A stretch of DNA of 64,000 nt from a virus, in the IMG/VR virus record IMGVR_UViG_3300043172_000501, positions 1 to 64,000 of that record; one strand, given 5' to 3'. Position 1 is the stretch's first letter; each line of letters begins with the position of its first letter. The translations under genes were made by a program, and so were the position numbers. Positions 7,289 to 30,561 of this stretch are shown piece after piece. The notes below the pieces were generated by a model that ran no database searches, was not told where the DNA came from, and was given only the letters and a program-made list of their open reading frames with translations.

Positions 7289-7774
7289 ATGAAAAACTCA
7301 ACTATAAAAAATGAAACTTCAGAAAATTATAATAGTTATAAGCCAGAAAGCAAAAGTTCAACAATTGACAACGAAGAAAGAATTAGTTGCTCAAGAGATG
7401 GTAAAAACTTAATTAAATCGCACCTAACTTATGAACAGAAAGAACAGATGAAAAATCAAGAACTTTTCGGAGTTTTATTTTTAAATAATAAAAATAAGAT
7501 CATAGACTCAAGAGTTATTTTCATCGGAACAGTTAACGAAGCAGTGGTTTCTCCCCGTGATATTTTTAGACCAGCTCTTGAAGTTGGAGCAGTAAGAATT
7601 ATAGCATGGCACAACCATCCAAGTGGAGACACCACACCATCACAAGAAGATATCGCACTTGGAAAAAGACTTTTTGACTGCGGAGAAATGTTAGGAGTAC
7701 AACAACTTGATAATCTAATAATTAGTAGTGATTTTAAAAATTATGTTTCAATGAGAGACTTAGGATATATTTAA
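7289..7774 (+). CDS. RadC-like JAB1/MPN (JAMM) domain protein
   Basis: A 161-residue protein with the RadC signature: residues about 60-85 (LFGVLFLNNKNKIIDSRVIF) followed by the metal-binding segment WHNHPSGDTTPSQED, which supplies the His-x-His and downstream Ser/Asp of the JAMM motif. Cellular RadC is usually longer and has a helix-hairpin-helix region; here a 45-residue polar N-terminus replaces it. RadC-like proteins are common in mobile elements near DNA metabolism genes, but their activity is not established. It is the first gene of the early operon, with AGGAG before the ATG. Confidence 0.8.
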   Translation: MKNSTIKNETSENYNSYKPESKSSTIDNEERISCSRDGKNLIKSHLTYEQKEQMKNQELFGVLFLNNKNKIIDSRVIFIGTVNEAVVSPRDIFRPALEVGAVRIIAWHNHPSGDTTPSQEDIALGKRLFDCGEMLGVQQLDNLIISSDFKNYVSMRDLGYI

Positions 7775-9691: not shown

Positions 9692-9851
9692 ACAGTTTCA
9701 AGTAGCCGTCCACGTTCCTCCAGAGTTACAAGAACATAAAAGTGTAGACGAAATAATCGAGGCATTTGATTTTTATGATGACGATGATGCCCGTATAAAT
9801 TTTGAACTGAGCATGAGTGCTCATAACAAGAACAGAGGAGAAAATAAATAA
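9678..9851 (+). CDS. Small hypothetical protein, GTG start (57 aa)
   Basis: The upstream in-frame ATG at 9615 lies deep inside the preceding gene and would be out of frame with it. The GTG at 9678 has AAAGGA 8 bp upstream and gives a normal 14-bp overlap, so it is the better start. The 57-residue product has an Asp-rich segment (FYDDDDARINFEL). Its stop overlaps the next ATG (TAATG). Function unknown. Confidence 0.6.
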   Translation: MILVEQFQVAVHVPPELQEHKSVDEIIEAFDFYDDDDARINFELSMSAHNKNRGENK

Positions 9852-10789
9852 TGCAACCATTATCAAACACAAAAATCATCAGTGAAGACTTGACACAATC
9901 AAAAGGGCAACACATTGGAGACATTATCGGATGGACTCAAGAAGGCAAAAAGAACAGGCGTATCATAGAAGACGCGCTTGTTAAATTTGGACTATCTGAA
10001 GATGTTGATTTGCCCAAAGTAACTTCCGTATCAGCATATCGTAGAACAATTCCAAAAGCTGTTAAAGGCGGAAAGTTAGATGAGCGAAAATATGAAGCAG
10101 TTTTATTAGAAGACAATGAAACTAAAATTGTCCACGCAATAGTCAGGAAAGATATTGTAACCGGCACCAGTGGCACACTCTCTCTTAAAGATGCCGAGTT
10201 TGAAACTGAAACAAAATTCGCATTTGATAAAGAAGGCTACAAAGATGGTTTAGCTGCAGAACATCTTTTTAAGTTAGAGCATGACACTCATCCTATATCA
10301 GTTAAAGCCCAAGAAATTTATGACAGCATGTGTGTAGTCTACACAGTAGAAGACATCAGAGCAGGATTTCAAAGAGCGTTTAGAAAATGGGGAGGCTGTA
10401 GTCTTCTTAGCAAAGGTGGCTTCTGGTGGATACCACCAACCAAGTCAGACAAAGTTAGAGACTGGGTAGCTTTCATGCAAAGTATCGGTTCTGAAATTGT
10501 TATACTTCCACAATTTGAAACAGAAGAAACTATGGTGTCATTACAGAACAGCACACAGTCATCTCTTGAAGGACAGCTTGAAAAATTATTTTCACAACTA
10601 GAAACATTTAGTGGAAAAGATACAACAAGATTGTCCACACTAGAAAAAAGAGTTGAAGCTTTTGACGACCTTCGTGACAAAGCAGAACTGTATGAAAGAC
10701 TTCTTGGTCATAATCTTGACGAAATAAAAACCAAACTAGAAGGTGCAAGTGTAGCTCTAGTTCAATCAATCAAAGAAATGACTTCGTAG
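9851..10789 (+). CDS. DUF6744-like early protein with shared C-terminal module (312 aa)
   Basis: The N-terminal 230 residues contain the segment AGFQRAFRKWGG...GGFWWIPP, which I associate with the DUF6744 phage family that often sits beside MoxR/VWA genes. The last 65-75 residues form a predicted coil (GQLEKLFSQLETF ... AELYERLLGHNLDEIKTKLE). The same module ends the proteins encoded at 14866-16116 and 16116-16979. It starts on a TAATG overlap and is followed by structured RNA D and then the MoxR-like ATPase. The family assignment is from memory of the motif; biochemical role unknown. Confidence 0.6.
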   Translation: MQPLSNTKIISEDLTQSKGQHIGDIIGWTQEGKKNRRIIEDALVKFGLSEDVDLPKVTSVSAYRRTIPKAVKGGKLDERKYEAVLLEDNETKIVHAIVRKDIVTGTSGTLSLKDAEFETETKFAFDKEGYKDGLAAEHLFKLEHDTHPISVKAQEIYDSMCVVYTVEDIRAGFQRAFRKWGGCSLLSKGGFWWIPPTKSDKVRDWVAFMQSIGSEIVILPQFETEETMVSLQNSTQSSLEGQLEKLFSQLETFSGKDTTRLSTLEKRVEAFDDLRDKAELYERLLGHNLDEIKTKLEGASVALVQSIKEMTS

Positions 10790-10869
10790 CATTCGTGCGA
10801 GCGGGGTAGAAATACCCCACAGCTAGGGAGAGTCCCTGGTGCTTATCAATATCGATAAGTAGGCGCTGC
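10789..10869 (+). ncRNA. Structured intergenic RNA D: four-way-junction cloverleaf
   Basis: A closing stem (GCA + GTGC at 10789-10798 paired with GCGC + TGC at 10863-10869, with a TTC bulge) encloses three hairpins. These are GGGGTA-GAAA-TACCCC (10803-10818), GCTAGGGA-GAG-TCCCTGGT (10822-10840) and CTTATC-AATATC-GATAAG (10842-10859). The overall shape is a cloverleaf of about 81 nt, but without a T-loop or an anticodon-like arm, so it is not a tRNA. It begins at the stop codon of the preceding gene and ends about 34 nt before the MoxR-like ATPase start. Confidence 0.6.
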
Positions 10870-10902
10870 TTAAATTAGTAGTACAACGAGGAGAAAAAAC
10901 AA

Positions 10903-12108
10903 ATGGCGACTGAAGAGAAGAAAAATAATAAAAAAGTAAAAAACTTTCAAAACGCTCAACTAAGATTGTCGAAAATCGAAGAGCAATTAAATGACGCATT
11001 TCTAGAACGTAGCGAACTTATAAAAAATATGATGATCGCAATTGTTGCTGGAGAACATATTTTCGTAGGTGGACCTCCCGGAACAGGTAAAACATTATTA
11101 GCTCAAGTATTCGCAAACGCCTGTGCAGGCGGTTCATTCTATGAGTTCCTTATGAACAAGTTTGCAGTACCAGAACAGATCTTTGGACCTATAAAATTCA
11201 GCTCATTAAAAAAAGATGAATTTGAAAGAAATTTCGTTGGATACGCTCCTGAAGCGAGAGTGTGGTTTTTAGATGAAATTTGGAAAGCTAGTATCGCAAT
11301 TCTTAACACTCTATTAAAAGTGACTCAAGATCGTGAAATGAGAAATGGTTCCAAGATGGTCAAACTACCACTAGACATGGTTATCGCTGCGAGCAATGAA
11401 TACCCACAAGACGAAAGTTTAAACGCCCTATATGATAGGTTCTTAATTAGATTCTGGGTAGATTATCTCGCAGACGCCGACAACGTAAAGGAACTTTGGT
11501 CTAACGGAGGAGTGATTAAACCTGTTACCGCTAAACTAGAAGATGGCGACTTAGAACTACTCCGTGAACAACTTGGAAAAGTGCAATTCTCCAAAGGTAA
11601 CATTCAAACATTATCAGAAATTAAAAGCGCAGTTGAAGCTGAAAGTTTTGTTGCTTCAGACAGAACATGGATGAAATGTATGAAACTAGTTAGAGCTTCC
11701 GCAGTTGCCAGTGGACGATCTAAAATTATCGGATCTGATTTTAGTATCTTATCAAATGTACTTTGGAAAGAACACAAAGACCGTCCTAAATTACATGAGA
11801 TAGTTGGAAATGCCGCAGACCCTTACGGTAGCAGAGCTGAAGCTATCATTGACGGAATTAAATTAGCACTTGCCGAGACGCCTGACATTTCCACACTAAG
11901 AAACGGTACAATAAGCAAGATAGACTTTATCAACAAACTAGGACCAGTAAACGGAATGCTTGCATCACAAAGTACAGCCATCCAAGAGTTAGAAGACGAC
12001 GCACAAGACAATCCTGCAGTCCAAAGCGCATCAAAGAAATTAGAAGAAGCTTTCACAGCTGTTGATACCGCCATGAAAGAAGCTAGTAGATTCAGGGAGC
12101 GTCGATAA
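10903..12108 (+). CDS. MoxR/CobS-like AAA+ ATPase
   Basis: A 401-residue AAA+ ATPase. Walker A GGPPGTGKTLLA lies near residue 58, Walker B WFLDEIWKA near residue 120, and a sensor-1 type ASNEYPQ segment near 165. These match MoxR-family ATPases (relatives RavA, CobS), which act with VWA-domain partners as chaperone-like remodelers. The ATG has a GAGGAG site. The stop overlaps the start of the VWA gene (ATAATG), so the pair is translationally coupled. The C-terminal 100 residues are helical. The substrate is unknown. Confidence 0.85.
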   Translation: MATEEKKNNKKVKNFQNAQLRLSKIEEQLNDAFLERSELIKNMMIAIVAGEHIFVGGPPGTGKTLLAQVFANACAGGSFYEFLMNKFAVPEQIFGPIKFSSLKKDEFERNFVGYAPEARVWFLDEIWKASIAILNTLLKVTQDREMRNGSKMVKLPLDMVIAASNEYPQDESLNALYDRFLIRFWVDYLADADNVKELWSNGGVIKPVTAKLEDGDLELLREQLGKVQFSKGNIQTLSEIKSAVEAESFVASDRTWMKCMKLVRASAVASGRSKIIGSDFSILSNVLWKEHKDRPKLHEIVGNAADPYGSRAEAIIDGIKLALAETPDISTLRNGTISKIDFINKLGPVNGMLASQSTAIQELEDDAQDNPAVQSASKKLEEAFTAVDTAMKEASRFRERR

Positions 12109-13574
12109 TGTCAAAGAATCTAATTTATAAACCTAGTGCATTCCACAGGCATCAGTGGAAGTACTATAAAAAAGTCGAACCAGACGCAAGGACCGCAGAG
12201 CGTATTGGTGAAGACAGGTATGAAAAATTTCCTGATTTTTCCGAGGAAATATTCCACAGTATGTATGCAGATAAGCCGAACAGAGTAGAAGAACCAGCAC
12301 CAGGTACTGAAATATTCCAGAAGCTTGACCAGGAAATTAACAAGATACCAGAAGTTGCCGATCTCGCTAAACGATGCAAAGGCGATGAGAGATGGTCCGG
12401 CATAGCGACAACAGCAATCATTGATGAGTTAATGAAAAGTGTACCAGCTCCAGATGGTCAAGTGAAAGATCCTTCCAAAGATGAGCAAGTGATTCAGTAC
12501 CTGGAAAGATTATTAGATAATATGGCAGAAGGCGACAAAGACGCAGAACACATGAAAGAGACTTTAGAGAACGCCAAGAATAGTCGTGATGAAAAAATAG
12601 AAAACAATATAGATGCTGCGAACTCTATAGATGAATCAGATATTCGTAACGCTTTAAGAAAAGCTGCGAAAGGCGCAACAGACAATATCGAAGCTGAACA
12701 AAACATGATCGATTCTTTTTCTGCAGGTGAAGGCACAAGCTCTAATAGATTACAAAGAAAAGCAATCGCAAGAAAACTAAGAAAAGTAATCAGCGGAAAC
12801 AAACGAATGCAAAAAATAGCAGAACTTGCAGGAAGACTTCGCAGAGTTGCTTTAGAACAACAAAGACAAAAACCACGAAAAGGGACAGACGAAGTAACAG
12901 GCATAGAACTAGGGGACAATCTTAGCAGACTGATACCTTCAGAAGCTATCTTCATGGAAGATGATTTAGAAGTAATCTTCGCCAGGAAATACAATGAGAG
13001 AGCTTTACTGAATACAGAGCTAAACAAAAATCCACCCAAAGAACAAGGGCCGATTATCATGCTTTTGGATAGTAGTGGCTCAATGTCCTACAACAACGCA
13101 GACGCCTGGGCTGCTGCAGTATGCCTAGCATTTTTAGAAATTGCAAAAAAACAAAAGAGAGCTTTTTCAATAGTTCATTTTGGTGGTGACGTGAGAAGAA
13201 CTGATAAGTGGAAAGCCAAAGGAGAATGGGGAATTGATTCTATCTTAGAAGCTGTATCATTCTTCGCATGTGACGGCGGTACAAACTTCATGCAACCTAT
13301 AAACGAAGGCATCAGGTTCATTCGTGAAGAAGGTGACTTTAAAAAAGCAGATCTTATTATGGTAACTGACGGAGAAGCAAATGTCTCTCCCGGCTGGGAA
13401 ATAGACTACAACAAAGCAAAAGAAGATTTAGAGTTTAGTACTTATTCAATATTAGTAGGTAGCTCCGCTGAAGGAGCAAAGAAAACATGCGAGAAATTTT
13501 CAGACGAAGTTGTCTTCTTAGCAGACGCAATAAAAGAAGAGAAAAATATGTTTGAATTTTTCAAGAAAGTTTAA
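12108..13574 (+). CDS. VWA-domain protein, CobT-like partner of MoxR ATPase
   Basis: 488 residues. The N-terminal 300 are helical and highly charged. The C-terminal 180 form a von Willebrand A domain with a complete MIDAS: DSSGSMS (about residue 321), a Thr in CDGGTNF, and Asp in VTDGEA. The domain order (charged N-terminus, C-terminal VWA) matches CobT-like partners of MoxR/CobS ATPases. It is coupled to the ATPase gene by start/stop overlap. Together they probably remodel a protein or complex during early infection; the target is unknown. Confidence 0.85.
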   Translation: MSKNLIYKPSAFHRHQWKYYKKVEPDARTAERIGEDRYEKFPDFSEEIFHSMYADKPNRVEEPAPGTEIFQKLDQEINKIPEVADLAKRCKGDERWSGIATTAIIDELMKSVPAPDGQVKDPSKDEQVIQYLERLLDNMAEGDKDAEHMKETLENAKNSRDEKIENNIDAANSIDESDIRNALRKAAKGATDNIEAEQNMIDSFSAGEGTSSNRLQRKAIARKLRKVISGNKRMQKIAELAGRLRRVALEQQRQKPRKGTDEVTGIELGDNLSRLIPSEAIFMEDDLEVIFARKYNERALLNTELNKNPPKEQGPIIMLLDSSGSMSYNNADAWAAAVCLAFLEIAKKQKRAFSIVHFGGDVRRTDKWKAKGEWGIDSILEAVSFFACDGGTNFMQPINEGIRFIREEGDFKKADLIMVTDGEANVSPGWEIDYNKAKEDLEFSTYSILVGSSAEGAKKTCEKFSDEVVFLADAIKEEKNMFEFFKKV

Positions 13575-13583
13575 AGAGAAATC

Positions 13584-14081
13584 ATGCCAAGAACAAAACT
13601 AAAACCATGTCATTGTGGGAATGACGAATTAGTAGAACGCCCTTTCATAGACAGGGAAAAACCTAATATCATGGTTATCTGCTCACACTGCGACAGTCAC
13701 ATGACCATAACCAGTTGGATGAACAGAAGAGAAGTAACCAGCGAATCAAAAACAGAATCAGCTAAAGTTGATGTTATAGTGGATACAGTTTACAAACTGA
13801 CAAAAGATACCTGGAATAAAAGAGTCACATTAAAAGATAGTGTCGAACAGATGAGAAGCTACATCGCTGACTTTATAGGCGCAGGTAAATCTGGAATCCA
13901 CATAACAGAAAAACAATTTTTAAAAATGATCCTAAATCTAGGAGGCATAATGGTTCTTCTTTCAAAAGAATTAGTAGAACTCCAAAAGACAAATAAACCA
14001 GAAGACACAGACGAAACAGTTTATATAGCTATGCCCAAATCAGAATTCGGAGCCAGCGCAAAAAAAGAAGACTGGAACTAA
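13584..14081 (+). CDS. Zinc-ribbon protein, Lar-like N-terminus (165 aa)
   Basis: The first 50 residues carry KPCHCGN ... ICSHCDS ... SWMNRRE, the arrangement of Lar-type restriction-alleviation zinc ribbons (KPCPFCG ... C..C ... WNRR). The remaining 110 residues are helical and unlike classical Lar, which is much shorter. It lies just after the VWA gene with 9 bp between. An anti-restriction role would fit the methyltransferase and deazaguanine genes elsewhere in the window but is not shown by the sequence. Confidence 0.55.
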   Translation: MPRTKLKPCHCGNDELVERPFIDREKPNIMVICSHCDSHMTITSWMNRREVTSESKTESAKVDVIVDTVYKLTKDTWNKRVTLKDSVEQMRSYIADFIGAGKSGIHITEKQFLKMILNLGGIMVLLSKELVELQKTNKPEDTDETVYIAMPKSEFGASAKKEDWN

Positions 14082-14083
14082 TC

Positions 14084-14365
14084 ATGAAACAAAGAGAAAT
14101 CACAACAACAGCAAAAAAACAAGTAGCAAACCAGATCCTTGTCTTATGCGAAGACATTTTCCGTCAAGATGAAAATTTCATTAAAAGATTATCTAAGATA
14201 GAACAGAGTGAAGTTGCTAAAGAAACCTACATCCAGATAGCTCGCGTATTTAATTTTCTCGGATTTGACACACCAACAGAAGTATCCACTGGAGAAAAAT
14301 CATGGGACGAAACCTGTAAAACGATAAGAGCAAGAGAAAATAATAATAGTAAAGATAAAAAATAA
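14084..14365 (+). CDS. Small helical hypothetical protein (93 aa)
   Basis: A predicted all-helical basic/acidic protein with no cysteine cluster or membrane segment. It begins 3 bp after the preceding gene and is the last gene before the XRE-family regulator. Function not recognised. Confidence 0.65.
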   Translation: MKQREITTTAKKQVANQILVLCEDIFRQDENFIKRLSKIEQSEVAKETYIQIARVFNFLGFDTPTEVSTGEKSWDETCKTIRARENNNSKDKK

Positions 14366-14480
14366 AACTTGTCATTTAGGACTGGCTAGTATAGTTTTTC
14401 TTTTAATGCTACAGTAAATCTGATATAACTAAAGGTGACTGTACAACTCAATTATTATTTTAGAAATAAAGGGAATTAAC
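14366..14480 (+). promoter_or_regulatory. Promoter/operator region of the XRE regulator
   Basis: Two candidate promoters are seen: TTGTCA (14369-14374) with TATAGT (14390-14395, short 15-bp spacer), and an extended -10 TGATATAAC at 14421-14429. The inverted repeat TACAGT (14410-14415) / ACTGTA (14438-14443) brackets the second -10, as expected for a repressor operator. The adjacent helix-turn-helix gene is the obvious candidate to bind it. No hairpin terminator was seen. Confidence 0.45.
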
Positions 14481-14750
14481 ATGGAACGCAAAACAGTAAA
14501 ATCTTTTAATCACTTTCGGGCTAGAGTCGAGATAGAAGCACACAGAAACAACTGGACATTAGCTGAAGTAGGGCAACGTGTGAAGAGATCACCACAAGCT
14601 CTACAAGACATTTTAAAACGAGGAAATCCTACATTAGAGACATTGAAACAGTTTGCAGAAGCTCTTAATATCTCAGCAGAAGAAATGATGTCAGAAGTTG
14701 ACCCCTTAGAGTATGGGAAAATGATGATACCAAAATTAGTAAAAATATAA
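14481..14750 (+). CDS. XRE-family helix-turn-helix regulator (89 aa)
   Basis: Residues 10-70 contain the HTH_XRE pattern: a first helix (RVEIEAHRNNWTLAEVGQRV), recognition segment KRSPQALQDILKRGNPTLET and the closing LKQFAEALNISAEEMM. Length and domain are typical of small phage repressors/Cro-like proteins. It has its own upstream promoter region containing a TACAGT inverted repeat, suggesting autoregulation. It precedes the recombination/replication genes and probably times their expression. Confidence 0.8.
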   Translation: MERKTVKSFNHFRARVEIEAHRNNWTLAEVGQRVKRSPQALQDILKRGNPTLETLKQFAEALNISAEEMMSEVDPLEYGKMMIPKLVKI

Positions 14751-14759
14751 AAAGCAACC

Positions 14760-14841
14760 GCTCCTGCTGATGCAAGAGATGTTCACCGTGGCAAGGTTCT
14801 CCTCCCGGGTCATAGTGGGCGTTTCTTTCATCAGTACGAGC
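14760..14841 (+). ncRNA. Structured intergenic RNA E before the exonuclease gene
   Basis: A long-range stem closes the element: GCTC (14760-14763) with GAGC (14838-14841), then a 3x3 internal loop, then CTGATG (14767-14772) with CATCAG (14829-14834). Inside are smaller arms such as GAGA...ACC / GGT-TCTC and CCC/GGG. The 115-bp gap is otherwise gene-free and ends at a GAGGCAACGC leader to the YqaJ gene. No T-run. Confidence 0.6.
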
Positions 14842-14865
14842 ATTAGGTAAAGTTAGAGGCAACGC

Positions 14866-16116
14866 ATGAAATCAGAAGAAGAAATAAAGTTAGAATTTGA
14901 ATGGCTACAACGAAGGAAATTCGGAATAGGTTCAAGTACCTCTCCAGTTCTAGTTTTAGGCAAAGTGTTCACTTCGACACCGCTGTCAGTTTATATTGAT
15001 AAGAAAACACCAGCAGTACCAAACACTGAAGACAACCCAGAATTTAGGCGTGGTCATAAATACGAACCAGTCGCCATTGAGTTATATCAAGAGAAAAACC
15101 CACAAGTTAAAACTTTCATGCCGATAACACAGCAAGAACGTTATTATGACTATCAAGTTTTTCATCCAACACTGAAACACTTTTATGCAGACTTTGATGG
15201 TTTTGAAATTGATGAAAACGGAGACTTGTGGATATTAGAAGTTAAGAGTCCCAGACAGATGATTGTTGACAGAATAAAAGCAGAAGGTGTTAAAGATTAT
15301 TATCAAGTCCAATGTCACCACCTACTCGGTGTAGCTTCTGTGGCTCGTGACCTCCTACCAGCACCAATAAATAAATGCAAAGGCAAATTGAAAGGTGCAA
15401 AAATAATAATCTATGAATGTGAAAATATTGATATCCTAACACACGAAGTGGAATACGATCAAGAGATGATTGATTTAATTTTCGACAAAGGAACCGCATT
15501 CTGGACAGAAAATGTTGAAAAGAATAATCCGCCACAACTTCAGTCACAAGTTCCTTCTGCTGTCATCTCCAACAAAGGCGGAACTTATGAACACGTAAAA
15601 GGTAAAGCATGGGAAGAAGCTTCCGGGATGTTATTACTTGCTGCGGAAATGAAAAAACTTGCAGAAAAAAGACACGCAGCTGCAAAAAAACAATTATCTG
15701 AAGCAATGAAAGCTGCCAAGATGACTAAGGTTATTTTACCAAATGGAACCAAGCTAAACCTCGGGATACAAGCCGGTAGAAAATCTTTTGACAAAGAAGC
15801 TCTAAAAGCAGCACACCCAAATATTGATTTAGATCAATTTAATAAGTATGGAAAATCATTTGAAGCTTTCAGAGTTTACGGAAAGACATCCGTTCCTAGT
15901 GAAGAAACCCTAGACGGAGCGATCGGAACACTCAGCGACCAGCTAGAAGCTTTTCCTAAAAGGAATTTAGATTCTGAAATCGCCATGGAAGTTTTTGAAG
16001 AACTACAAAACAAAACAGAACTGTATCAACGATTGTTACAGAGCGAGCTTGAAAGATTAGACACAGCTCTTGATATTGCCGGAATTGCTGCAATAAAGAA
16101 AGCAACAAATAGCTAA
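14866..16116 (+). CDS. YqaJ-family viral recombinase/exonuclease
   Basis: 416 residues. Residues 10-190 show the YqaJ/lambda-exonuclease nuclease fold: an IGSS motif near residue 22, FRRGHKYEPVA (acidic residue after the helix start), a DFDGFEI segment, and the catalytic LEVKSP motif near residue 125 (E-x-K). This family degrades one strand of DNA ends to load a RecT-type annealase. The C-terminal 70 residues are a coil module ending AELYxRLL-like (TELYQRLLQSELERLDTAL) shared with two neighbours. It is coupled to the next gene by TAATG, and RecT follows one gene later, so they form a recombination module. Confidence 0.85.
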   Translation: MKSEEEIKLEFEWLQRRKFGIGSSTSPVLVLGKVFTSTPLSVYIDKKTPAVPNTEDNPEFRRGHKYEPVAIELYQEKNPQVKTFMPITQQERYYDYQVFHPTLKHFYADFDGFEIDENGDLWILEVKSPRQMIVDRIKAEGVKDYYQVQCHHLLGVASVARDLLPAPINKCKGKLKGAKIIIYECENIDILTHEVEYDQEMIDLIFDKGTAFWTENVEKNNPPQLQSQVPSAVISNKGGTYEHVKGKAWEEASGMLLLAAEMKKLAEKRHAAAKKQLSEAMKAAKMTKVILPNGTKLNLGIQAGRKSFDKEALKAAHPNIDLDQFNKYGKSFEAFRVYGKTSVPSEETLDGAIGTLSDQLEAFPKRNLDSEIAMEVFEELQNKTELYQRLLQSELERLDTALDIAGIAAIKKATNS

Positions 16117-16979
16117 TGTCGAAGAAGAAAATAAAAAACAAAAAACTTGATGCCGTTCCAAAAGATGAGATGCTGACTAGTTTTGATATGGCTCCAGTTT
16201 GTTCATCTGAGGTTAAACTAGACAGTATAGATGCTTGGCTTACAACACTGACAAAACCAAATGATAAATTTGATGATTACGTAAACCTTATGAGTTCTCA
16301 AGTTTACATTAACTCACCACCACCACGTGTTCACCCGATGCCTATTGTAATAAAGAAGTTAGACGGATTACCAATAGAAATAACTTTACAAGCATCAGAA
16401 ATTGAAAACTTTAGCCATATACGCAAACAAAACAAAGCGACTATTTATGACGCACGCACTCAATCCATAACTATTGATGGACCACTAGATGAAGAAGCTC
16501 TGAAGTATTCACCATTACTTGATATGCTTAAAAATTTCTTACCAACAACCCAAAAAGAAACACTTTATGCAGTCACTCTAAAATCCACAAACAGAGACAA
16601 AGACGGAACAGTCACTTCGTCCTTCTTCACTACTAACGGGAGACAAATAAAGACAGCGCATGAAACATTTATAAGGTTACTTCCTTCAAAAGAAGAAGCA
16701 GAAGAGATACGTAAAAATAATTACTGTGACGTAATCGAAATCAAACCACATAGTGATGACATTGACGGGCAACTAGCTAAACTGCAAGATCGAGTTGTCC
16801 AGTTTGAAACAAATATAAAAACAATGTCCAAAGAAGAGGCAACTGGTGAATACGCAAACATCAAGCCTGTAGCAGAATTGTATTCTAGGATGTTAAAAGA
16901 AGAGGTTGCAAAAATTGATTCTATTTTAGAATCAGCAGAAACAGAGTTGTGTAAACAACTCAGAAGAGAGTCGAAATGA
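16116..16979 (+). CDS. Unknown protein between exonuclease and RecT, shared C-terminal module (287 aa)
   Basis: The N-terminal 210 residues contain beta-rich segments (for example IVIKKLDGLPIEITLQ and YAVTLKSTNRDKDGTVTSSF) with no recognised catalytic motif. The final 65-70 residues (DGQLAKLQDRVVQFE ... AELYSRMLKEEVAKIDSIL) belong to the same C-terminal module found on the YqaJ exonuclease and on the DUF6744-like protein. It overlaps both neighbours by a few bases. A recombination accessory role is inferred from position. Confidence 0.65.
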   Translation: MSKKKIKNKKLDAVPKDEMLTSFDMAPVCSSEVKLDSIDAWLTTLTKPNDKFDDYVNLMSSQVYINSPPPRVHPMPIVIKKLDGLPIEITLQASEIENFSHIRKQNKATIYDARTQSITIDGPLDEEALKYSPLLDMLKNFLPTTQKETLYAVTLKSTNRDKDGTVTSSFFTTNGRQIKTAHETFIRLLPSKEEAEEIRKNNYCDVIEIKPHSDDIDGQLAKLQDRVVQFETNIKTMSKEEATGEYANIKPVAELYSRMLKEEVAKIDSILESAETELCKQLRRESK

Positions 16980-18031
16980 CAAATCAAAAACCAGAGTTAA
17001 GCAATTACGACCAAATTAAAAAATGGCTAGAAGCGATATCAATGCGAGAGATTTTCCAACAGTCTCTGCCCAAATCAGTTCCAGTTGATAATTGGATTAA
17101 CACAGCTCTAAGTACAATAAGAACCAGTGAAGAGATTCAAAACGCAGAACCATTGTCAACACTAGGGGCATTGATGACTATTGCCAGTCTCGGTTTACGA
17201 TTAGAAGGGCCATTAGGTCAAGCTTATCTCACAACTAGGAATGTTAAAAAGAAGAACAAACAATCAGGTCAATGGGAATGGTCACACAAAGAAACTCAAA
17301 TGCAAGTGGGTTATCGTGGTCTATTAGCCATCGCATGGCGTGACCCTGAAGTTCAAGACATCGAGGCCATTATTGTTCGCAAGAATGATGAGTTTGATTT
17401 TCAGAGAGGAAGTAATTCCTATTTAACACACAAGTGGGAGTTTGGAGTAGAACGAGGACCAATAGTAGCGGTGTATTCTGGTCTTCGTTTCAAAAACGGT
17501 TACTACTCTTTTGAGCCTTATGACATTGAAAGTATAATGGATCTTCGTTCCGACATTCTTAAACAGAACGGCATATCTATAGAACAACTCGAAAAAGGTG
17601 GAGTAGTTTACCATAAGAAGAAATGGGGAGACTCCGGCACCAGGCAAATGAGTGAAGATGAAGCAAGTAAAGTTCCATGGATTGGTCATCTAGATCCAAT
17701 GATTAAAAAAACAGTTATTAGACGTTCTGCAAACTATTGGAAACTTGGAAACGATTTCGAGACAGCAGCTAATCTTGTAGCTATAGACGAAGCAGGGCTA
17801 TCTCAAAATTTAGCAAGAGCTGCGAGTGATGTTATGCCTCAAGAAATCAATCCTAACAACCAAAATAAGCCAATGAATGTCAGATCAAGAAAGAAGAATA
17901 GCGACATCAAAGCAAGACTCGTAGCAGAAGCTGACGCTTCAAGAAGTGCAGCTGATTCAAAATCATCTAAAGAAGTTGATAAAAAAGAAACTAGCATGCC
18001 AGAAACTAAAAAGGCAAAATCAAATGAGTAG
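16976..18031 (+). CDS. recT: RecT-family single-strand annealing protein
   Basis: 351 residues with the RecT core: an N-terminal FQQSLPKSVPVDNWINTAL segment, STLGALMTIASLGLRLEGPLG (residues about 60-85; RecT proteins carry a similar A..GL.P..), and the central MQVGYRGLLAIAWRDPEVQ motif near residue 115. RecT anneals complementary single strands and works with a partner exonuclease, here the YqaJ-like gene two genes upstream. The C-terminal 60 residues are charged and Ser/Lys-rich. It overlaps the preceding and following genes. Confidence 0.9.
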   Translation: MTNQKPELSNYDQIKKWLEAISMREIFQQSLPKSVPVDNWINTALSTIRTSEEIQNAEPLSTLGALMTIASLGLRLEGPLGQAYLTTRNVKKKNKQSGQWEWSHKETQMQVGYRGLLAIAWRDPEVQDIEAIIVRKNDEFDFQRGSNSYLTHKWEFGVERGPIVAVYSGLRFKNGYYSFEPYDIESIMDLRSDILKQNGISIEQLEKGGVVYHKKKWGDSGTRQMSEDEASKVPWIGHLDPMIKKTVIRRSANYWKLGNDFETAANLVAIDEAGLSQNLARAASDVMPQEINPNNQNKPMNVRSRKKNSDIKARLVAEADASRSAADSKSSKEVDKKETSMPETKKAKSNE

Positions 18032-20709: not shown

Positions 20710-21801
20710 ATGAATCAACCAAACTTAGATAAAAAAACCGGCATCCAGACAGACGACGCAAACGTGATTGTATGTCAATGTGGCAGTGTATCTTTTGAAG
20801 TAAAAAAGAGAACAGCGACCGCAGTGTCTTTAACTTGTAGAAAGTGCGAAGCAGATATATCAGTGAAAGGATCTGTAGCTCAGGTTAGAATTAGAAGTAA
20901 TGATATCGCATACGCAATTACAGAAAAAGTAGTTCGTCCAGATCCTGATTATAAAAAAAGTAAAAAGACACCGACAGAAACGTCTAGCCCAGCGACACCT
21001 ACTCTCGCAGACCAAGGATACAGAACTTTAAGGTTTAAGATTAGCAAAGACCAAGATGAGATTGTCCAAAGAGCGATGGAAGTTATGCGTGTAATGCATT
21101 GTCAAGACGAACAGTTTAAAAGCAAACAGTGGCAAGGCTCTTCTTTAGAACTTATTTGTGCAGAATTTTTATCCGGTGCAGATTCTAGGGCATTATCGGT
21201 TGTAACCGCAATGGAAGAAGAAGTTGAAAAAGCTAAAGCTCAACAACTCATAAAAGACAAAACCGTTACACTGACTAAACGAAAAATTAGAAAAGTCAGA
21301 ACAGACACAAGAGAGAGAATGTATAAAGAGTTAGGGCTAGACGAAGAAGTCGAAGCCTATGAGCCACCTGAACTAACCAAAGACGAAAAGAAGTCAGATG
21401 AGTCCTATAAAAAGGCTAAAAAAGATCAAGAAGAAAAAGAAGACGAAGACATTCGCCTCATAGACGATGATCGCCTTTATGATTCTGTGGGTGGATGTTT
21501 AATCGAACACGGCGAAGGAATAAAAGAGCAAACAGGAAAACGTCCAGTTATGTTAATAGGAAGACCTAATGACAAAACACGTTTAGAGCAAAAATTTGAA
21601 AAACATGGCGGAACAATGTATTTACTAACAGGAGATGAGAGAACCAAAAGTAAAATCGGTGACACTCCGTTCATGTACGTATGGTTAGAAAAAGGGTTAG
21701 AAATGCCAGAAATAACAATCGCTTATGATGAATCATTCGTTGAAACACCATTAGGCGACCCACAATTAACAGTCGAGATAATAAGAGGTAAAGTAGCATG
21801 A
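20710..21801 (+). CDS. Hypothetical protein with N-terminal zinc ribbon (363 aa)
   Basis: Residues 20-55 contain VCQCGS ... LTCRKCEA, a small zinc-ribbon-like knuckle. A middle region (about 95-165) is helical with FKISKDQDEIVQRAMEVMRV, followed by a very charged Lys/Glu stretch (185-255). The C-terminal 110 residues are alpha/beta. A TAGGAGGTAGTA leader precedes the ATG. It follows dnaB directly and is coupled to the next gene. Replication-associated role inferred from position only. Confidence 0.65.
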   Translation: MNQPNLDKKTGIQTDDANVIVCQCGSVSFEVKKRTATAVSLTCRKCEADISVKGSVAQVRIRSNDIAYAITEKVVRPDPDYKKSKKTPTETSSPATPTLADQGYRTLRFKISKDQDEIVQRAMEVMRVMHCQDEQFKSKQWQGSSLELICAEFLSGADSRALSVVTAMEEEVEKAKAQQLIKDKTVTLTKRKIRKVRTDTRERMYKELGLDEEVEAYEPPELTKDEKKSDESYKKAKKDQEEKEDEDIRLIDDDRLYDSVGGCLIEHGEGIKEQTGKRPVMLIGRPNDKTRLEQKFEKHGGTMYLLTGDERTKSKIGDTPFMYVWLEKGLEMPEITIAYDESFVETPLGDPQLTVEIIRGKVA

Positions 21802-22265: not shown

Positions 22266-23000
22266 ATGGCTAAAAGAAATATCTTAGTGTTTTATTCTAA
22301 TACAAACACTCATGGAAAAAAAGACGCGACTGGTGCGTTTATACCAGAAGCAAAAGCATTTGTTAAGACACACAGTGTACCTGTAGATAATATATTTCCA
22401 ATGAATTTGAATAAAGTGCCAACGAAAGAGCGACGATTAAAAGTTATCAGAGCATTGAATAACTATAAAGGACCAAAGCTCAACGCAATAGCATTCTTCG
22501 GACATGGTTGGCCCAGTGGAATTCAGTTTGGATTTAGAAAACATCAAATATCACTATTAGTGACTAACTTTAAAAATATCTGCAAACCTAGTGTCAATAT
22601 TTTACTGTACGCCTGTTTAGCTGCAGAGAATAAAGTAAAAGATTCTAACATAAAAAACGTAGGACCAGGTACTGATGGCGGATTCGCAGATTTGCTTCGT
22701 GACGAGATGGTACGACAAGGGATGAATCGTGGATGGGTTGATGCTCACAAGACAGCCGGACACACTACTTGGAATCCATTCGTCGTAAGATTCTACTGCA
22801 AGAACGTAGATGATCCTAAAGTAGGGGCTGTAGGAGGCTCTTGGTTAGTACAACCACGCTCACAGTTTTGGAAACTTTGGATAATAGAACTGAGAAATAA
22901 AAAAAGAGGTATGAGGTATTTATTTCCATTCATGGAAGAGTTAGAGCTAAAAGCAAAACTCGCAGGGAAAAAAATAATACACTACGATTTCACCAAGTAA
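22266..23000 (+). CDS. Caspase-fold-like (clan CD type) cysteine peptidase candidate
   Basis: A 244-residue soluble protein. Strand-loop segment LNAIAFFGHGWPSG (His80, Gly81) is followed 36 residues later by VNILLYACLAAENK (Cys117). This His-Gly ... Ala-Cys pattern after hydrophobic strands is the catalytic signature of clan CD peptidases (caspases, metacaspases, CHAT, gingipain-like). A further conserved-looking segment GTDGGFADLLRDEM ... AGHTTWNP lies at residues about 138-175. It precedes the transglycosylase gene, so it could take part in lysis or be an effector acting on host proteins. No signal peptide. Proteolytic activity is inferred from motif geometry only. Confidence 0.55.
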   Translation: MAKRNILVFYSNTNTHGKKDATGAFIPEAKAFVKTHSVPVDNIFPMNLNKVPTKERRLKVIRALNNYKGPKLNAIAFFGHGWPSGIQFGFRKHQISLLVTNFKNICKPSVNILLYACLAAENKVKDSNIKNVGPGTDGGFADLLRDEMVRQGMNRGWVDAHKTAGHTTWNPFVVRFYCKNVDDPKVGAVGGSWLVQPRSQFWKLWIIELRNKKRGMRYLFPFMEELELKAKLAGKKIIHYDFTK

Positions 23001-28516: not shown

Positions 28517-28825
28517 ATGGAACAAAATCAAACAAAAATTGAAGTGTATTGTAATGTCGAGAATAAAATCGTAGGACACATCGACACGAGCCAGATGTCT
28601 GGGAAACAAGTTTTAGACAGAAATACAATTATGATGAGCTTCACGCCAATCAGTGAAGCCTACCAACTATCAGCCATAAAAGATAATGAGTATCTTAAGT
28701 GTGGTAACTGTTACGGCACTATGGCGTTACGAGGGAAAGTTAGAACCGACGAAAGTAAAGAGAGTTTTGAGACATCTGGAATAGCTATCATTATTGGCAG
28801 AACAAAATTAGAGGTACCAAGATGA
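28517..28825 (+). CDS. Hypothetical protein, first gene of the deazaguanine block (102 aa)
   Basis: A GAGGGAG site precedes the ATG. Residues 55-65 include YLKCGNCYG, a single CxxC knuckle. The C-terminus is beta-rich (SGIAIIIGRTKLEVP). Its stop overlaps the QueD start (ATGA), so it is translated together with the biosynthesis genes. Role unknown. Confidence 0.6.
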   Translation: MEQNQTKIEVYCNVENKIVGHIDTSQMSGKQVLDRNTIMMSFTPISEAYQLSAIKDNEYLKCGNCYGTMALRGKVRTDESKESFETSGIAIIIGRTKLEVPR

Positions 28826-29310
28826 TAAGCATAAAAAAAGAATTTAAATTTGAAGCTGCTCACCGTCTACCATTACACGGAGGAGCATGTGCTAATATCC
28901 ACGGACATAGTTATAAATTAGTAGTCGAAGTATCAGGAGAACCAGAAAAAGTAGGCCCAGCAACTGATATGGTTACAGACTTCGGAACACTAACCAACGT
29001 TGTGCATGATATAATAAACGAAGGGATGATTCAAGGCAGACAAACCGTACCACTTGACCACTCCATAATGCTATGGAAAGATGATCCTTTGCTGGAAGTT
29101 TTAAAAACAGCGATAGAAAAAAAAGATATACCAGGGCAAAGATTAGCTATATTCACAAATCAACCAACAGCAGAGTATATGGCAGAAATGTTAGCTAACT
29201 TCATTCAGTCAGGACTAGAAGAGGCAACACCTCAAGATATTAAAGTGACAAGAGTTGAAGTATGGGAAACGGCTAAATCATACGCCATCTGGGAATCAGA
29301 TTATGAGTAA
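28822..29310 (+). CDS. queD: 6-carboxytetrahydropterin synthase QueD
   Basis: 162 residues of the T-fold PTPS/QueD family. Zinc ligands are visible at His14 (EAAHRL), His27 and His29 (NIHGHSY), and the catalytic Cys23 (GACAN) is four residues before the HGH pair. VTDFGTL and PLDHSIML supply the Asp and the DH pair; PTAEYMAEML and the Glu in VTRVEVWET complete the pterin pocket. It converts dihydroneopterin triphosphate to 6-carboxytetrahydropterin. It overlaps queE by an ATGAGTAA junction. The length is somewhat greater than bacterial QueD (about 120 residues) because of an insert near residue 90. Confidence 0.9.
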   Translation: MISIKKEFKFEAAHRLPLHGGACANIHGHSYKLVVEVSGEPEKVGPATDMVTDFGTLTNVVHDIINEGMIQGRQTVPLDHSIMLWKDDPLLEVLKTAIEKKDIPGQRLAIFTNQPTAEYMAEMLANFIQSGLEEATPQDIKVTRVEVWETAKSYAIWESDYE

Positions 29311-29986
29311 CTATAAATTAACAGAGATGTTTTATTCTTTGCAAGGTGAAGGTCATAACATCGGACATGCTGCACTCTTTATTCGTTTTTCTGGCTGTAC
29401 ACTAAACTGTACGTTCTGTGATACTGATTTTACACAAAAGTTTGAACTATCATTAGAAGAAATAAAAGCTGAAATAAAAGCGATGCAATTGCCGAATGAA
29501 ACTTTGGTTATTCTGACAGGTGGCGAACCCCTATTACAAGTAGACATGCCATTAGTTAGAATGATTGAAAATTTAGGTTTACTACCATGTATAGAAACAA
29601 GCGGAGATGAAAAGGCCGTGGCTAAAGCGACATCAAAAGGTATCGAAGTAGAAACAGTATTACACACTTTACATGATGTAACTATTTCACCAAAAAATTC
29701 CTATGTTAGTAATTTCGTATTAGCACTATCATCTGCTATTAAAATACTGGTCCCGTTTCCCGGTGATATTACTGAAGATGACGTCCGGCACTATGCTGAA
29801 GAACTTGGAGAAGACAGAAACGGTTCATTTCCCGAGTTTATTCTTCAACCTATCACCACAAAAGATCTAAAAATTGACCCAAGAGCAAGTGCACTTGCAA
29901 TGAGATTTCAGCACAAATGGGTTAGTCAAACCAATAAAGACTGGCGTGTAATTCCACAGTGCCACGTCCCAATGCAACTGAGGTAA
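29303..29986 (+). CDS. queE: 7-carboxy-7-deazaguanine synthase QueE (radical SAM)
   Basis: The ATG at 29303 overlaps the queD stop and gives the canonical N-terminus [20 protein letters not shown]. The radical SAM cluster motif is CTLNCTFC (Cys32, Cys36, Cys39) followed by DTDF. GGEPLLQ binds SAM. C-terminal FILQP and CHVPMQLR match QueE ends. It rearranges 6-carboxytetrahydropterin into 7-carboxy-7-deazaguanine (CDG), the common precursor of deazaguanine bases. Confidence 0.92.
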
Positions 29987-29988
29987 TT

Positions 29989-30561
29989 ATGTCTATCGAT
30001 GAGAAAACAGCACTGCAGTCCGTCAAAAATATATTAGAATATTTAGGAGAGAATGTTGACCGTGAAGGCCTAGTCGATACTCCCCAAAGAGTCCTACGCT
30101 CCTGGGAAAAACTTTATGGCGGATACAAAATAAAACCAGAAGATGTTGCCAAAGCAACTTTTAAAGGTGACGGCTATGATCAAATGATAGTACTAAAACA
30201 TATCGAGTTCTACAGTACTTGCGAACACCACATGATACCGTTCACTGGAAAGATTTCGATAGGATATCTTCCTAATAAAGCTGGAAAAGTCTTAGGGATA
30301 TCCAAACTTGCGAGAATAGTAGAAATCTACGCTCGTAGATTACAAATACAAGAACGGATGACAGAACAAATAGCAGGAGCTGTTGAAAAACTAATAAAAG
30401 CAAATGGCGTGGGCGTTATTGTTGAAGCACAACACATGTGCATGACAGCCAGGGGAGTTGAAAAACAAAACTCAGTAATGGTCACTTCCTCAATGCGTGG
30501 GTCTTTTCGTGAGTCACAGACTAAAGCAGAGTTCTTATCAATTATCAAGGAGCGAGATTAA
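29989..30561 (+). CDS. folE: GTP cyclohydrolase I (FolE)
   Basis: The ATG at 29989 with TGAGG upstream is preferred to an in-frame ATG at 29959 inside queE; it gives 190 residues. The active-site segment [12 protein letters not shown] (Cys and His zinc ligands), the [13 protein letters not shown] motif and QHMCMTARG with the third ligand are all intact. It makes dihydroneopterin triphosphate from GTP, feeding QueD. The order queD-queE-folE is a compact deazaguanine precursor cassette. Confidence 0.93.

Follow-up and report, generated by a model that had tools for sequence, protein, structure and literature searches.

A C-terminal helical tail common to DUF6744, a YqaJ exonuclease and a neighbouring protein in a phage MoxR-VWA locus

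Introduction

MoxR-VWA machines are widespread, and we know of no clients of theirs in phages and plasmids. The closest described arrangement to the one presented here is that of the effector-associated domains (EADs) of MoxR-vWA ternary conflict systems. These small, mostly helical, non-enzymatic domains occupy one end of a core component and recur on enzymes encoded by separate genes of the neighbourhood. Copies from the same genome are more alike, and homotypic coupling was proposed (Kaur et al. 2020, PMC7159879). The locus analysed here lies in the first 64 kb (the window) of a 96,656-base virus record (IMG/VR IMGVR_UViG_3300043172_000501). A DUF6744 protein encoded near MoxR and VWA genes, a YqaJ/RecE-like exonuclease and a third protein (A, B and C, respectively) end there in a tail which, by sequence comparison, is homologous in all three and probably acts as a coupling plug joining them. 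The features are listed below.

9851..10789, plus strand: protein A, 312 amino acids, DUF6744 family (PF20529; Pfam E 3.4e-10, above the curated cut-off)
10562..10786, plus strand: tail of A, residues 238-312 (pairwise alignment, tail hidden Markov model (HMM), AlphaFold2 model)
14866..16116, plus strand: protein B, YqaJ/RecE-like exonuclease with C-terminal tail (PF09588, E 1.2e-13)
15907..16113, plus strand: tail of B, residues 348-416 (alignments, tail HMM; YqaJ of other phages end earlier)
16116..16979, plus strand: protein C, 287 amino acids (one homologue, L017:7842-8558)
16758..16976, plus strand: tail of C, residues 215-287 (profile of DUF6744 and YqaJ tails alone, E 2.4e-8)
10903..12108, plus strand: MoxR AAA+ ATPase, RavA/bpMoxR-like (bpMoxR PF20030, E 3.7e-51; NCBIfam RavA, E 1.3e-61, under the equivalog cut-off)
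12108..13574, plus strand: VWA protein, ViaA-like (VWA_2, E 1e-7; NCBIfam ViaA, E 1.6e-19, under the cut-off)
16976..18031, plus strand: RecT-family annealing protein, without tail (PF03837, E 1.2e-29)

The MoxR and VWA genes sit between A and B, and RecT follows C. These genes are collinear, B being located 4.1 kb downstream of the DUF6744 gene and 1.3 kb downstream of the VWA gene, and the start codon of C overlaps the stop codon of B.

Comparison with described systems

The likeness to EADs concerns position, size, helical character and occurrence on a core component as well as on an enzyme. The tail is the C-terminal module of DUF6744, whose status as a core component is deduced from its gene neighbourhood beside MoxR and VWA, and a further copy is found at the C-terminus of an enzyme, YqaJ, encoded collinearly downstream. 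It is 69–75 residues long, and AlphaFold2 models that of A as helical. With respect to same-genome resemblance, the own-genome pairing of tails was the best of 720, with four independent lineages, and the tail tree, poorly supported and too weak to root or to date transfers, grouped mostly by carrier protein. On the other hand, DUF6744 takes the place of the core proteins of PMC7159879 (VMAP, iSTAND and others), the enzyme with the tail is an exonuclease of phage recombination, and the genes lie in a recombination region of a phage rather than in a bacterial conflict locus. No EAD-named family was present among the Pfam matches of 17 tails. By analogy, the tail may thus work like an EAD without being filed as one, homotypic binding being a prediction in both cases.

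Among NCBIfam models, RavA and ViaA are the best matches of the phage MoxR and VWA proteins, but the scores lie far under the equivalog cut-offs (209 of 681 bits for RavA and 70.5 of 500 for ViaA), which leaves both proteins outside these families. The MIDAS DxSxS motif of the VWA protein, read from the sequence, is intact (LLDSSGSMS). The phage pair also differs from RavA-ViaA in being accompanied by DUF6744.

Protein A belongs to PF20529 (39.8 bits for a cut-off of 27, residues 35–297), as do its relatives, and the family as such includes the C-terminal helical segment; what sets this phage lineage apart is that the segment also occurs on other proteins. Protein B scores 52 bits against PF09588 (cut-off 22), which is also matched by 8 of 8 members of the phage YqaJ family. 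B shares the nuclease core of the YqaJ/RecE-like exonucleases (PF09588, phrog_434), but members from other phages end at about its residue 343, and its phrog_434 match is limited to residues 12–339. No family match was obtained for C in Pfam, PHROG or NCBIfam.

The three tails are related

An earlier note, made from the sequence, had claimed a common C-terminal module on the products of three open reading frames (ORFs) starting at 9851, 14866 and 16116, with unrelated N-terminal domains. The three ORFs were found at these positions, and pairwise alignments exceeding shuffles, profiles built with one family left out and hhalign all confirmed the module. Local alignment scores of the tails were 102 for A-B, 72 for A-C and 79 for B-C, while the maxima over 1000 shuffles of 80-residue ends were 59, 47 and 50, respectively. 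A whole-record search with B retrieved the end of A (E 1.1e-6), and an HMM of the three tails, run on all 1431 stop-to-stop ORFs of the record (96,656 bases), gave no further match at E<0.01.

Relatives were collected by alignment-driven scans of IMG/VR, which provided loci (designated by L numbers) from about eight further contigs. Among 4043 ORFs, those of the relatives included, a profile of DUF6744 tails only recovered 8 of 8 YqaJ tails (E 5.7e-10 to 1.1e-5) and the C tails (E 0.0017 and 0.005), all of them above every unrelated ORF. The sole other match in this range was the DUF6744 of a cyanobacterial plasmid, whose E of 0.005 equals that of the weaker C tail. With a profile of YqaJ tails only, all DUF6744 and C tails came on top (E <1.3e-6), followed by an unrelated ORF at E 0.7. 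In profile-profile comparison, hhalign scores reached 70.8 for DUF6744-YqaJ, 55.9 for YqaJ-C and 36.6 for DUF6744-C; segments drawn from seven further proteins, or parts of proteins, encoded by these phages served as controls, and their 122 comparisons gave at most 20.9. Since the left-out families are found and profile-profile scores stand well above those of helical controls, the tails of A, B and C are homologous and of common descent, as judged from sequence.

The earlier note had proposed that a similarity no greater than that of generic coiled coils would speak against the module. This explanation was ruled out by the same profiles and by the score of 70.8 compared with 20.9 for the best control. 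As for the upstream parts of A, B and C, neither phmmer nor Pfam detected any relation, as the note had supposed; a marginal local score between those of B and C (55, for a shuffle maximum of 52) was not backed by any profile search.

AlphaFold2 predicted helices in A at 225–255, 261–285 and 290–311 (pLDDT about 70–80 in this part; mean pLDDT of the model 74). The conserved positions of the tail comprise a heptad-like hydrophobic row together with charges outside the heptad pattern, in F(D/E)(D/E)LRx(R/K)(A/T)(E/D)LY. A PDB sequence search with the tail profile gave only short stretches, taken as chance, and tblastn of the tails against phages and plasmids only chance matches. No solved structure resembling DUF6744 was found.

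Distribution in relatives

Scans of viral contigs with single proteins (A, C, the VWA protein or the DUF6744 of a Moorella phage) produced no relatives, and scans of genome contigs no match; B alone retrieved from viral contigs one distant, tail-less YqaJ (L003). In the relatives obtained by the alignment-driven scans, gene order is kept: DUF6744, MoxR, VWA, small genes including a helix-turn-helix (HTH) protein, YqaJ, an annealing protein, a homologue of the protein encoded at 17946, and DnaB. The tail HMM matched both DUF6744 and YqaJ in all five relatives spanning both genes (L012/L023, L017, L019, L022 and L025). Among these, a third carrier was present in L017 only, a C homologue whose gene, like that of C in the window, starts immediately behind YqaJ. 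Three loci reaching YqaJ only (L018, L020, whose YqaJ is identical to that of L019, and L021) carry a tailed YqaJ, and one reaching DUF6744 only (L026) a tailed DUF6744. Whole-record scans found the tail confined to DUF6744 and YqaJ in two relatives (94.8 and 99.6 kb). A 35.7-kb relative has it on DUF6744, YqaJ and C.

The DUF6744 proteins of one sub-lineage (L019:1442-3070, L012:1650-3347 and L025:2704-4356) have an extra N-terminal part of up to about 200 residues. They also continue past the tail with a K/E/A-rich extension that leaves the tail internal; the tail thus need not be the extreme C-terminus.

Separately, a protein of about 400 amino acids is encoded upstream of YqaJ in L017:5429-6601, L019:7057-8256 and L012:7733-8959. 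Its CxxC motifs and terminal Cys cluster recall Cas4/AddB-like nucleases; it was not seen in the window, and the two examples tested were without Pfam match.

Origin of the tail and its link to MoxR-VWA

When DUF6744 is aligned across the whole family, with plasmid members from Bacillota, Actinomycetota and Cyanobacteriota, a helical C-terminal segment is in register with the tail. YqaJ of other phages stop near residue 343 of B: 60 of 60 tblastn matches end there or earlier, and five annotated proteins measure about 291–338 residues. Tailed YqaJ was observed only together with DUF6744-MoxR-VWA. Because plasmid DUF6744 ends correspond to the tail while YqaJ of other phages end before it, we infer from this distribution that the tail is native to DUF6744 and was added to YqaJ and C.

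A DUF6744 gene lies beside MoxR and VWA genes, or a few small genes away, in 9 of 9 annotated plasmid loci, which belong to the same three phyla and differ in gene order between them. DUF6744 is likewise near MoxR and VWA genes in Moorella phage MTATph1, and halovirus HVTV-1 possesses DUF6744 and an AAA-VWA pair, non-adjacent. No mention of DUF6744 was found in a literature collection of 5.39 million papers. We propose, from gene neighbourhood, that DUF6744 is a third, core component of the phage MoxR-VWA machine. The tail is native to DUF6744, and DUF6744 is constantly accompanied by MoxR-VWA; most simply, then, the tail would take part in how this machine operates.

In Aphanizomenon phage CL131, an LPD29-domain protein (L010:758-1600) precedes MoxR-VWA instead of DUF6744; the third slot of phage cassettes may be exchangeable.

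Selection and within-genome matching

Across phages, the tail is nearly as conserved as the core of its carrier, with identities of 0.46 (tail) and 0.51 (core) for YqaJ and of 0.42 and 0.43 for DUF6744. Between close pairs, the ratio of nonsynonymous to synonymous substitution rates (dN/dS) was about 0.08 for the YqaJ tail and about 0.03 for the DUF6744 tail. Purifying selection and near-core conservation, both read from sequence, thus indicate that the tail is functional on DUF6744 and on YqaJ.

When each DUF6744 tail was paired with the YqaJ tail of its own genome, the match was better than under any re-pairing (1/720, or 1/24 with four lineages). In this small sample, such own-genome resemblance is expected if the tails share a partner or meet each other.

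How the tail may act

The earlier note had suggested that the tail is a docking signal, for instance for the MoxR/VWA complex, the single-stranded DNA-binding protein (SSB) or a replication hub. That unrelated proteins have in common a tail under selection does indicate some shared interaction, but tail-tail pairing is at least as plausible as docking on a third protein. Among the candidate partners, MoxR/VWA is favoured by the genetic link of DUF6744; SSB and a replication hub, for which no evidence came up, would be less likely candidates.

On balance we lean, if only somewhat, towards the reading that a DUF6744-derived tail couples YqaJ, and C, to a MoxR-VWA-DUF6744 machine. The tail would be the C-terminal helical module of DUF6744 in a RavA/ViaA-like AAA+ machine, appended also to YqaJ in this phage lineage and to the neighbouring C in two phages. 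As an EAD-like coupling adaptor, it would bring the exonuclease and C into one complex with DUF6744 and MoxR-VWA, whose AAA+ engine could thereby act on the nuclease during phage recombination, be it by loading, activating, remodelling or removing it. This physical coupling and its purpose we infer. Concerning the contact itself, direct tail-tail pairing is our tentative choice, slightly preferred to the more doubtful possibility that all tails enter one socket on MoxR or VWA.

Several points weigh against this coupling. DUF6744 of an unannotated Subdoligranulum plasmid (L016) has no MoxR or VWA within 12 kb, so that 9 of 10 plasmid loci are linked. Plasmid DUF6744 ends are only weakly similar to the YqaJ tail (hhalign 23.7, controls at most 20.9) and moderately to the phage DUF6744 tail (31.3), which means that the bridge from plasmids to YqaJ runs via phage DUF6744. 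A second tail copy was absent from every plasmid examined, and the coupling role would therefore be restricted to these phages. Within-genome matching rests on few independent lineages, the best attainable p being 1/24, and the model of C is poor (mean pLDDT 42).

Rather improbably in our view, the tail could instead dock A, B and C on another hub of DNA metabolism (DnaB helicase, the 17946 protein, SSB or a host factor), independently of MoxR-VWA. The same phages do share DnaB, the homologue of the 17946 protein, the HTH protein and the protein encoded at 20710, in conserved order beside YqaJ, and the conserved surface charges of the tail suggest a specific partner. However, DUF6744, the native bearer, tracks MoxR-VWA in plasmids and in the Moorella phage despite otherwise different neighbours. 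RecT is also excluded as the obligatory partner: in L022 an ERF protein (PF04404, L022:11080-11880) takes its place and the tail is retained, and we judged RecT unlikely as the tail partner.

We give less credit to a simple oligomerisation bundle by which each protein would self-multimerise, with no cross-talk among the three. This would agree with the purely helical prediction and heptad-like hydrophobic spacing of the tail, but convergent coiled coils would not yield the cross-family score of 70.8 when controls reach 20.9, and the shared non-heptad residues and within-genome matching argue for a common partner.

It is somewhat less probable again that the tail is a recognition tag read by the MoxR-VWA engine, or by a host protease, so that DUF6744, YqaJ and C would be unfolded or removed, with no stable complex. 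MoxR AAA+ proteins have been likened to chaperones that help dedicated complexes to mature (PMC3893208), and a C-terminal location suits a tag; on the other side, further residues stand behind the tail in the DUF6744 of three relatives, and the tail, being conserved and structured over about 70 residues, is long for a tag.

Finally, recombination between adjacent genes could have left the tail behind as a passive relic, functionless on YqaJ or C. This would fit the proximity of the genes and the start of C on the stop codon of B, but is most improbable and was rejected on dN/dS and on near-core conservation across phages whose YqaJ are 37–45% identical to that of the window.

Other genes of the window

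A RadC-like JAB-domain protein is encoded at 7289-7774 (E 1.8e-35). At 28822-30561, genes for PTPS (QueD-like), radical SAM and GTP cyclohydrolase I proteins are consecutive, which suggests phage synthesis of preQ0/7-deazaguanine, possibly for DNA modification; HVTV-1, the halovirus mentioned above, has a similar set. The 244-amino acid protein at 22266-23000 contains FFGHG and LLYACLAA segments reminiscent of the His-Cys dyad of caspase/CHAT-like proteases, an unproven resemblance with no match in Pfam, NCBIfam or PADLOC.

Implications

The tail common to DUF6744 and the exonuclease designates a concrete candidate client of MoxR-VWA. It suggests that recombination or replication is what the DUF6744-MoxR-VWA cassette acts on, a first hint of a role in DNA recombination, and that phages use the domain-coupling logic of bacterial conflict systems for their own DNA metabolism. 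A more specific view, which we advance only tentatively, is that MoxR-VWA-DUF6744 may be a dedicated remodeller of the phage recombination apparatus, the tail being a previously undescribed coupling domain that plugs in the RecE-like exonuclease and C. If true, many large plasmids, too, would have a DNA-metabolism machine in their DUF6744-MoxR-VWA cassette.

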